Below are positions 41,818-54,240 of a stretch of 64,000 nucleotides of DNA, piece by piece (positions within the stretch are counted from its first letter, which is position 1; the number at the start of each line of letters is the position of its first letter). The notes beneath the pieces are model-generated. The model worked only from the letters and a program-made list of their open reading frames with translations. It searched no databases and was not told the DNA's origin. Source of the DNA: Faecalicoccus acidiformans. Its GTDB lineage: Bacteria > Bacillota_I > Bacilli_A > Erysipelotrichales > Erysipelotrichaceae. Position numbers and translations under genes: made by a program. The DNA is taken from contig NZ_JACHHD010000006.1 in NCBI RefSeq assembly GCF_014202635.1, positions 1 through 64,000 of the forward strand, written 5' to 3'.

Positions 41818-41891
41818 AGGGGTATAGTTCAATGGTAGAACAGCGGTCTCCAAAACCGTTGATGTGGGTTCAACTCCTGCTACCCCTGCCA
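41818..41891 (+). tRNA. tRNA-Trp (anticodon CCA)
   Basis: The acceptor stem AGGGGTA/TACCCCT, the D arm, the anticodon loop CTCCAAA with CCA, and the T arm GGGTTCAACTCC fold normally, and the CCA end is encoded (41889-41891). An extended-type promoter (TTGAAA at 41778, TAGAAT at 41800) lies upstream. Its 3' end is the left copy of a 22-bp repeat used as an attachment site. Confidence 0.96.
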
Positions 41892-41896
41892 GTTAG
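41875..41896 (+). repeat. Left attachment-site repeat (tRNA-Trp 3' end)
   Basis: A 22-bp sequence starting TCCTGCTACCCCTGCC and ending AGTTAG. It covers the last part of tRNA-Trp and 5 bases beyond, and is repeated exactly at 44617-44638. Confidence 0.85.
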
Positions 41897-41903
41897 TAAA
41901 CAT

Positions 41904-41946
41904 AAGCTCGAAATATCCTTTATTTAAAGGCATTTCGAGCTTTTTG
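41904..41946 (+). terminator. Terminator after tRNA-Trp
   Basis: AAGCTCGAAAT / ATTTCGAGCTT, an 11-bp stem with a 17-base loop and a T run. Confidence 0.85.
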
Positions 41947-41962
41947 TTTTACTTTTATACTA

Positions 41963-42060
41963 TCACTGACCAGATTTCTGACCAGATTTATTAATTTTTA
42001 TCTCTAATTTGTATGTTTTCAATCTCTTTTTTCTTCATACATTTTTTTAAACCAAACATT
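41963..42060 (-). pseudogene. Remnant of an integrase C-terminus (left end)
   Basis: Read on the minus strand, one frame gives a tail ending KSGQKSGQ followed by a stop at 41963, and another gives a short ATG-initiated peptide KKKEIENIQIRDKN ending at 41991. Integrases of Gram-positive elements often end with SGQ-rich tails beside the att site. The fragment is at most about 30 codons, so the call rests on motif and position only. Confidence 0.35.
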
Positions 42061-42069
42061 TTTTGAGGC

Positions 42070-42094
42070 AAGGTGGCAGTACTGCCACCTTTTA
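42070..42094 (+). terminator. Perfect palindrome, terminator-like
   Basis: AAGGTGGCAGTACTGCCACC followed by TTTTAT: an 11-bp inverted repeat with no loop. It lies upstream of the surface protein gene, with no intact gene before it, so it may be left over from a lost gene. Confidence 0.65.
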
Positions 42095-42183
42095 TCTTGG
42101 ATCTTCAATTGTTTTTTATAGCATAGATTGTTATACTTTTTCTATAAATAAGGCGATTTAACTATTTAAAGGAGAAAAACAAA

Positions 42184-44355
42184 ATGAAGAGAAAAGACAT
42201 ATTACCTGTTCTTTTGACTGGAGCTTTATCTGTATCTACATTTGCCAATACATTAAGTGTATTCGCTCAGGAAGAACAGTCAAATGAAACTAATACAGTA
42301 GTAGATAAAATAGATGATGGTAATATACAGAATATAGAAAATGAAATTGCAGATGCGAATACATCTACAGAAACAGAGAAGAAAGATGAAGAATCTATTG
42401 AAACCAATAACGTTGTAGGAAATCAAATCCATGAAATAGAGTCGTTAGAAGACAGTAATTCTATCTCTATAGAAAATTCATCAGAAGAGCCATCAAAAAA
42501 GGAGGTTAAAAACAATGATAAAAATCAAGCCGGAGATTTCCTTGTTGAAGGTGGAGAGAAAGGAATAGATTGGGATTTTACTATACAGCATGATGGAAAC
42601 AGCCCAATAACCATAAAAAAGAATGGTTCTTATACAATTATAGGAAATGGAACAGCAGCAAAGAATTATCAAATTAATATCGATGCCAATGTCACATGTA
42701 CGCTTACTTTAAATAATGTAAATATTGAAGCTATGTATGCAGGTATGAATATAAATGGAAATGCGAATGTCACATTAAATTTGGTTGGAAACAATAGAAT
42801 TGTTGCCGGCAATGTATATAATGCAGGAATCCAATTTAATGGTAGTGGAAATGTGTTGACCATCAATTCGGATGGTACAGGAACATTATATGCAAAAGGA
42901 ATGAGCCAAGCTGGTATAGGTGGTGGAAGTGTCGATGGTATTATCAAGATTTTAGGAGGTACCATTACTGCAACGTCAGACCATAGTTATGGCATAGGAG
43001 GAGCATCTTCGCAAAATATAATAATTGCAGGTGGAAGTGTAAAAGGAAGCGTTTCTAGCACTCCTACCGATGAACAAGGTAACAATCTTTATCTTGCAAG
43101 GTTAGACGGGCTTGCTGGAGTGAACAATGTTACGGTTGATGGAAAAGAATATACTCGATCTGGTAATCATTCGGATGGAGATGGAACGTTCTATCTTTAT
43201 TTGACTGGTCAGGATCATACGATTACCGCAAATGGGAAAACTTATGCGGTGTCTTGGAATGGGGAAAGCAAAAATTTTGAAATTGAAGACGCTAGTTACT
43301 CTGCATCAGTTACTCCTGCTAAAATAACCTTGCCTTCAGTTAAAGAAGGTTATGATCCGCAAGATCCAGAATATATAACTATTAAAAATACCGGCAATCA
43401 AACGATTAAATTAGAAGATCATGGAGCAAATCCTTGGCTTATCATTACGCTTGATAAAAATACTTTACAACCAAATGAAGAAGCCAAAGTTTCGATCAAA
43501 CTAAAAGATGGTCTAAGCGCTGAAAAAAGATCTACTTTATATGCCTTTATCACTTATACCAGCGAAGATGATAGTTATAGAGATCATGCCAGCTTTAAAG
43601 TAACTTATGAGATAATACACGATATGAAATATGTCGAAGCGAAAGAGCCAACTCATACGAGCGAAGGCAATATCGCCTATTGGTATTGTGAACACTGTGA
43701 TAAATACTATGATGATGCACTTGGCACTAATGAATTAAGTTTAGAGGATATAGCTATCCCAAAACTAACGGATCATACAGCAACCGATACTTGGTATCAT
43801 GATGAAAACAGTCACTGGCATACCTGTGAATGTGGAGAAGTCTTAGATAAAGAAGCTCATGAGTATAAATGGGTCATCGATAAAGAAGCTACTGCAACAA
43901 GTGAAGGTTTAAAACATGAAGAATGTAGTATTTGTGGTTATCAAAAAGAAGCAATTGTCATTCCGGTTGTTGGAACAGAAAACCAAGCACCCGTTATTAA
44001 CGCCAAAGACCAGACTTTAACCGTAGGTGATAAGTTTGATCCAATGAAAGGTGTTACAGCTACGGATAAAGAAGATGGTGACTTAACAGATAAGATCGTT
44101 ATTACCAAGAATACGGTCGATACTTCAAAAGCTGGCAAATATACTGTTGATTATGAAGTAACCGATAATGGTGGTACTCGTGTTCGTAAGACGATCGTTG
44201 TGACTGTAAAAGAAAAGACTGCAGCAGATTCTAAGAGAACAAACGGCACAAAGACCAGTGCTGGATTCGGAATTGGACTGTTCTCTTCTTTAGCAGGTGC
44301 ATCTGCTGTAGGAGCAGGAATCTTGTCTGTTCTTAAAAAGAGAAATGGTAAGTAA
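42184..44355 (+). CDS. Large surface protein with carbohydrate-binding-like and Ig-like domains
   Basis: The 723-residue protein has a signal peptide (KRKDILPVLLTGALSVSTF, cleavage near FAQE), an acidic Ser/Glu/Asn-rich linker, then a beta-solenoid-like region (NVTCTLTLNNVNIEA, NVTLNLVGNNRI, residues about 150-300) resembling the Cthe_2159-type carbohydrate-binding domain. It continues with a Cys-rich region (YCEHCDKYY, CECGEV, CSICGY), a DUF5011-type Ig-like domain (APVINAKDQTLTVGDKFDP) and a final membrane helix ending KKRNGK. No LPxTG motif is visible, so anchoring is by the helix or a non-standard signal. It is the only intact gene of the island, so it was probably acquired. Confidence 0.88.
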   Translation: MKRKDILPVLLTGALSVSTFANTLSVFAQEEQSNETNTVVDKIDDGNIQNIENEIADANTSTETEKKDEESIETNNVVGNQIHEIESLEDSNSISIENSSEEPSKKEVKNNDKNQAGDFLVEGGEKGIDWDFTIQHDGNSPITIKKNGSYTIIGNGTAAKNYQINIDANVTCTLTLNNVNIEAMYAGMNINGNANVTLNLVGNNRIVAGNVYNAGIQFNGSGNVLTINSDGTGTLYAKGMSQAGIGGGSVDGIIKILGGTITATSDHSYGIGGASSQNIIIAGGSVKGSVSSTPTDEQGNNLYLARLDGLAGVNNVTVDGKEYTRSGNHSDGDGTFYLYLTGQDHTITANGKTYAVSWNGESKNFEIEDASYSASVTPAKITLPSVKEGYDPQDPEYITIKNTGNQTIKLEDHGANPWLIITLDKNTLQPNEEAKVSIKLKDGLSAEKRSTLYAFITYTSEDDSYRDHASFKVTYEIIHDMKYVEAKEPTHTSEGNIAYWYCEHCDKYYDDALGTNELSLEDIAIPKLTDHTATDTWYHDENSHWHTCECGEVLDKEAHEYKWVIDKEATATSEGLKHEECSICGYQKEAIVIPVVGTENQAPVINAKDQTLTVGDKFDPMKGVTATDKEDGDLTDKIVITKNTVDTSKAGKYTVDYEVTDNGGTRVRKTIVVTVKEKTAADSKRTNGTKTSAGFGIGLFSSLAGASAVGAGILSVLKKRNGK

Positions 44356-44401
44356 AACGATTTAATGATATACTTTCATTGACATACATTAATACCTTAC
44401 A

Positions 44402-44433
44402 TAAGAAGAAGCTGAAAATGGCCTCTTCTTTTT
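44402..44433 (+). terminator. Terminator after the surface protein gene
   Basis: AAGAAGA-loop-TCTTCTT followed by a run of T. Confidence 0.75.
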
Positions 44434-44463
44434 TTGTATGATTCAGAAATTCGAAAAGTAAAC

Positions 44464-44520
44464 TTAATAACCGACTATTTTTAAATTTCCATTTTGACCA
44501 GATTTTGACCAGATAATATA
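44464..44520 (-). pseudogene. Remnant of an integrase C-terminus (right end)
   Basis: On the minus strand the frame reads WSKSGQNGNLKIVGY and then stop at 44464. WSKSGQ tails are common at the C-termini of tyrosine integrases in Firmicutes elements. The upstream frame is open for only about 30 codons and looks degraded. Confidence 0.4.
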
Positions 44521-44616
44521 GTAAAAATACAGGTAATTACACAAAAATGATGCAAACAATATTGAATTAAACTTCATAAAAATAGATAAAATTAAATAAA
44601 AATTGTTTTTTATTTT

Positions 44617-44638
44617 TCCTGCTACCCCTGCCAGTTAG
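44617..44638 (+). repeat. Right attachment-site repeat
   Basis: An exact 22-bp copy of 41875-41896 (the tRNA-Trp 3' end). No tRNA structure precedes it, so it is an isolated attachment-site scar. Confidence 0.85.
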
Positions 44639-44643
44639 GAAAT

Positions 44644-44690
44644 AAGCACTAAATCGGCTTGATATAAAGTTGATTTGGTGCTTTTTTATT
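44644..44690 (+). terminator. Terminator downstream of the right repeat
   Basis: AAGCACTAAATC / GATTTGGTGCTT with a 16-base loop and TTTTTT. It is probably the original terminator of tRNA-Trp, displaced by the insertion. Confidence 0.8.
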
Positions 44691-44756
44691 TCATGTTAAT
44701 GATCGATTGTTTTTTCGACTTAAAATAACTCATTATTTTTTCTTCTAGATAGAGAA

Positions 44757-54152: not shown

Positions 54153-54240
54153 GGAGAGTTGTCCGAGCGGTTTAAGGTGCAGTCTTGGAAAGGCTGTGTG
54201 GTTAACGCCACCAAGGGTTCGAATCCCTTACTCTCCGCCA
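54153..54240 (+). tRNA. tRNA-Ser (anticodon GGA)
   Basis: The acceptor stem GGAGAGT/ACTCTCC, a D arm, anticodon loop CTTGGAAAG with GGA, a long variable arm typical of serine tRNA, the T arm GGGTTCGAATCCC and an encoded CCA are all present. The promoter TTGACA (54113) with TATTAT (54136) lies upstream. Confidence 0.96.

Follow-up and report, generated by a model that had tools for sequence, protein, structure and literature searches.

The 2.7 kb that follow the tRNA-Trp gene of Faecalicoccus acidiformans are, in our assessment, probably an integrated mobile element that was inserted by a tRNA-Trp tyrosine integrase, has lost this integrase, and now retains its two attachment sites (attL and attR) and one surface-protein gene. 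This island lies within the window, meaning the whole 64,000-nucleotide stretch of DNA that was analyzed; all coordinates below refer to it, and all features are on the forward strand. The nature of the island is settled by a feature that is absent from a preliminary description of this locus: paired 11-bp repeats (TGACCAGATTT), all in the same orientation, that are located just inside both island ends.

ARAGORN identifies a complete tRNA-Trp gene (anticodon cca) at positions 41818-41891, which is the integration target and was regenerated by the element. Its 3′ end plus 5 bp forms the 22-bp attL core (41875-41896), and the attR core (44617-44638) is a displaced copy of this tRNA 3′ end. The two copies of the 22-mer, TCCTGCTACCCCTGCCAGTTAG, are exact and are 2742 bp apart, and the match extends to 25 of 26 positions when a 26-bp stretch around the cores is compared. 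Within 5 kb, the core is the sole exact direct repeat of at least 16 bp in the window. Just two copies are present in the 1.77-Mb genome when up to 2 mismatches are allowed, and a reversed control pattern yields 0 matches. The 3′ end of the tRNA-Ser gene (gga; 54153-54240) has no second copy in the window, and therefore no comparable island is located there.

Each core is followed by a predicted hairpin with a T run (−20.3 and −23.5 kcal/mol by RNA folding). The intrinsic terminator behind attL (41904-41945), called from the RNA fold and from a hairpin at the same place in the attP of phage contig L121, most likely arrived with the element. The terminator behind attR (44644-44691) is predicted both by RNA folding and by a consensus terminator scan, which reported only this right-hand terminator. 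It is probably the former tRNA-Trp terminator, because it is the closest in sequence to the tRNA-Trp terminator of a congener, G003 (46/57 positions, versus 41/58 for the attL terminator). Thus, three statements of the preliminary description stand: the end of tRNA-Trp recurs exactly about 2.7 kb away (by ARAGORN and repeat search), each repeat has a terminator of its own, and the duplication is not due to chance. The last of these follows from the arm pairs described below and the genome-wide uniqueness of the repeat, which together rule out chance or plain duplication.

The left arm-like pair, TGACCAGATTTcTGACCAGATTT (41967-41989), begins 71 bp past the core, and the right pair, TGACCAGATTTTGACCAGAT (44495-44514), ends about 102 bp ahead of the other core. 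The left end of the island thus reads tRNA core, terminator, and arm pair approximately 70 bp past the core, and the right end reads arm pair, approximately 100 bp, and core. Short paired direct repeats flanking a core have the look of the arm-type sites of tyrosine integrases, as in lambda-type and Tn916-type recombination. Among 273 family genomes, only this one contains the pattern TGACCAGATTT-N(0-3)-TGACCAGA, and there solely at the two island ends; a 20-base version of the arms with 3 mismatches allowed returned a single additional match, of poor quality, on another contig of the same genome. Judging from their sequence and position, the 11-bp pairs are likely to be arm-type sites to which an integrase would bind. 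The locus displays a regenerated tRNA gene with a displaced 3′ fragment in direct orientation and, by sequence and position, arm-type repeats inside both ends, as in elements inserted into tRNA genes by tyrosine integrases.

The same attachment layout is present in phages. In two IMG/VR contigs (L121 and L069), the order is arms, core, hairpin, and arms, and next comes an integrase that contains both PF00589 and the arm-binding domain PF14657. In two others (L094 and L113), 118 nt separate the end of the integrase from the core, and TGCCATACATC arms lie in this interval. From the core onward, L094 and L113 are 100% identical over 1090 bp to the sequence after tRNA-Trp in genome G221, which for this reason represents the exact empty-site allele of that prophage. 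This pair demonstrates insertion at tRNA-Trp for this attachment layout in the family. Given that the terminator of L121 lies inside attP, a regenerated tRNA-Trp would receive the element's own terminator. These prophages share with the island the core, the terminator past the core, and the tandem arm pairs, but they differ in their arms (TGCCATACATC or a GTGTATA type) and in carrying an integrase and phage genes. The preliminary description suggested a search for complete elements with the same core; these four contigs have that core together with an integrase, albeit with other arm sequences.

A complete element with TGACCAGATTT arms was not found in IMG/VR or among the family genomes. Eleven IMG/VR contigs with the arm pattern were considered as a parent and rejected, as they look unrelated, most of them showing arrays of the repeat and no tRNA called. 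We also noted long, imperfect intergenic arrays of TTGACCAGATTT/TTGACCAAATTT in unrelated viral contigs (L131, L133, L134, L136-L139, and L141), with four head-to-tail copies in some contigs and no tRNA called. Arms of the type found in congeners G001 and G003 (see below) were not detected in IMG/VR.

We propose that an element with a tRNA-Trp-specific tyrosine integrase would have inserted at the tRNA-Trp 3′ end. The attP of this element would have comprised the terminal portion of the tRNA gene, a terminator belonging to the element, and a TGACCAGATTT arm pair on each side, with the arm pairs serving the N-terminal domain of the integrase. Integration would have rebuilt tRNA-Trp with the terminator of the element (attL) and displaced the old tRNA end and its terminator 2.7 kb downstream (attR), such that the joined site before insertion would be CTACCCCTGCCAGTTAGGAAATAAGCACTAAATCGG, where tRNA-Trp is directly followed by the terminator at 44644. 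Subsequently, the integrase gene would have been lost along with every mobility gene. An internal deletion is the simplest account of this loss, because the integrase of L094 and L113 sits directly before the attR-side arms, where only 139 bp, the whole gap between the surface gene and the right-hand arms, are found here. What remained would be an island with cargo only, functioning in the manner of a cis-mobilizable element, with both attachment sites and no recombinase. We infer this order of events from the present arrangement, and the attachment sites may still be functional. Intact attachment sites and an intact gene fit a recent event and mobilization in trans alike.

No integrase is encoded inside the island, which holds one open reading frame and no PF00589 match, just as the first reading of the sequence had it. 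An integrase remnant that might be the trace of a deletion was likewise not found within the island, and this result, together with a parent element unseen in IMG/VR and the family, speaks against the proposed history. The genome has eight PF00589 matches, all outside the island, two of which are in genes that read as XerC/XerD-like. An intact 410-aa phage-type integrase gene (L046) is located close to the end of the contig, beside a repressor-like gene, at about 100.2 kb (contig C6 of this genome, G000); this is the contig of the window, and the gene is about 56 kb beyond the island. There are no TGACCAGATTT arms at this integrase, which was rejected as a partner because it is just 21-26% identical to the tRNA-Trp phage integrases. 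A partner element elsewhere in the genome was also dismissed, as the only further arm pair is the poor match with 3 mismatches.

These searches bear on an alternative that we regard as unlikely, in which the island is a living, non-autonomous one-gene cassette that normally lacks an integrase, has complete attachment sites, and is moved in trans, with the integrase supplied by another element that is co-resident or incoming. The cores are identical over 22 bp, both arm pairs and the open reading frame are intact, and no trace of a decaying integrase is present between the gene and the arms, all of which would be expected of such a unit. However, neither a second copy with the same ends nor an integrase with the same arms was found in this genome or in the family, and no other cargo was seen between the same ends. 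If true, this alternative would describe a minimal mobile unit of 2.7 kb and one gene with its own terminator, moved by the integrases of other tRNA-Trp elements and comparable to a gene cassette but with tRNA attachment sites.

Our preferred reading, an element reduced to its cargo, can also be examined at the same locus in relatives. Behind tRNA-Trp, congeners G001 and G003 have the same core and then a terminator and an arm pair of another sequence, TTGACTGTGATTTTGACTGTGATTT. The distance from core end to arm is 70-71 bp in these species and 71 bp in this island, and that from the second arm to the core is 112 bp in G003 versus 111 bp here. In G001, the locus is bounded by a BlaI-like gene and the tRNA on one side and by a 106-aa gene on the other, and its cargo includes nucleotidyltransferase-like, RelE/HigA-like, and CPBP-like genes (named by reading). 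The neighbors of tRNA-Trp in G003 (L043/L044) differ from those in the window, and the BlaI-like and transglutaminase genes adjoin on another contig; this adjacency shows that tRNA-Trp, together with its islands, moved relative to its neighbors. The tRNA-Trp locus of G002 was not found by DNA search. Thus, one sister species has other cargo, one is rearranged, and in one the locus was not found, and none of the three species compared (with one strain of F. acidiformans itself) shows the site of this exact insertion in its empty state. In G001, G002, and G003, even the best-matching sequences align with only the C-terminal part of the surface protein, and therefore the surface gene itself is absent there. 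The comparison with relatives proposed in the preliminary description hence yielded sister species without the surface gene but no empty tRNA-Trp allele. Its reading of an element reduced to cargo is strongly supported by the arm pairs, the attachment site geometry, and the prophage and empty-site pair, but not by an empty allele of the exact insertion.

Repeats of other types follow tRNA-Trp in other genera, namely TGACCACATT in g36 and TGCCATACATC and GCCTACAA in g78. Two g36 loci (L179 and L180) and a viral contig (L082) have TGACCACATT arm pairs, with HsdM/S/R-like or methylase/restriction genes beside the attachment site; tRNA-Trp islands of the g36 type are a hot spot for defense genes, as named by reading. 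Because cargo and arms differ at tRNA-Trp across relatives, we consider this gene a hot spot of turnover in the family, at which the arm sequence varies, the layout is kept, and the cargo consists of restriction-modification genes, toxin-antitoxin genes, or a surface protein.

Some of these loci are layered. On contig C34 of G003, a lone core without a tRNA is flanked on either side by an arm pair at a matching distance. This arrangement can be read as an attR lying beside what remains of a second element, and the g36 and L082 junctions look similar to it. Similarly, the 2.7 kb studied here could be the remainder between a newer attL and an older attachment site, at the edge of a larger or layered region of tandem elements. 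We consider this improbable, since the same repeat is present in both arm pairs, as a single element would have it at its two ends, and no clear arm pair is found beyond 44691. Finally, a segmental or slippage duplication of the tRNA end around a native gene, without integration, might be entertained because the repeat is short and tRNA gene fragments can in principle duplicate, but this reading is nearly refuted, given that the copied part is exactly the 3′ portion used as an attachment site by phages of this group and that arm pairs at both ends would be left without explanation.

The single cargo gene of the proposed element (42184-44355) is the only open reading frame between the repeats and encodes an intact protein of 723 aa. 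From its N terminus, this protein has a signal-peptide-like sequence, an acidic linker, a beta-helix-like region, and a weak Cep192-like Ig match; Cys-rich repeats, a PF16403/Big_3 Ig-like domain, and a hydrophobic C-terminal tail are also present. The signal peptide and the single intact frame agree with the surface-protein gene noted originally, as does PF16403/Big_3 with the Ig-like domains, whereas the carbohydrate-binding-like domains are a guess that finds no significant PDB match. A single-sequence structure model is beta-rich, with a predicted beta-helix-like region and a mean pLDDT of 59; against the PDB it gave no significant match, and pectate lyases and Cthe_2159 were among the non-significant ones. 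Carbohydrate binding and adhesion are thus guesses based on the type of fold, and the protein may be an adhesin. GC3 of the gene is 0.238, compared to values of 0.33-0.43 for seven genes elsewhere in the window, and a search across 294 other genomes of the order returned no relative of the beta-helix region. These two observations support a foreign origin of the gene. Matches to plasmid and phage relatives are confined to parts C-terminal of residue 420. One intact frame in one genome fits a recent insertion as well as an adhesin kept by selection.

Among known systems, the island most resembles cis-mobilizable elements (CIMEs; definition in PMC5704250), whose first description concerned ICESt1-related elements of Streptococcus thermophilus. 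As in CIMEs, attL and attR are retained, integration and transfer genes are absent (their former presence would follow from the proposed history), and the locus carries tandem or successive elements in related species. Unlike them, the island has just one gene in 2.7 kb, and its parent may have been a phage, an IME, or an ICE; no relict genes are present to indicate an ICE or IME origin, and phages have this attachment layout as well. Dehalococcoides ssrA islands without an integration module have been interpreted as possible CIMEs (PMC3146451). In these islands, too, the cargo is flanked by directly repeated copies of the 3′ end of a tRNA-like gene and no recombinase gene is present, but they are larger, target ssrA, involve a serine recombinase, and carry rdhA. 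For Islander, the presence of an integrase gene within the island is a prerequisite (PMC4383910), and islands such as this one would therefore be missed. We conclude that the island is no new system but belongs to a known kind of decayed mobile element, akin to CIMEs and integrase-less tRNA islands, of which it is a very small example. It shows how small an integrase-inserted island with complete attachment sites can become, and paired arm repeats can reveal integrase-less islands that integrase-based finders miss.
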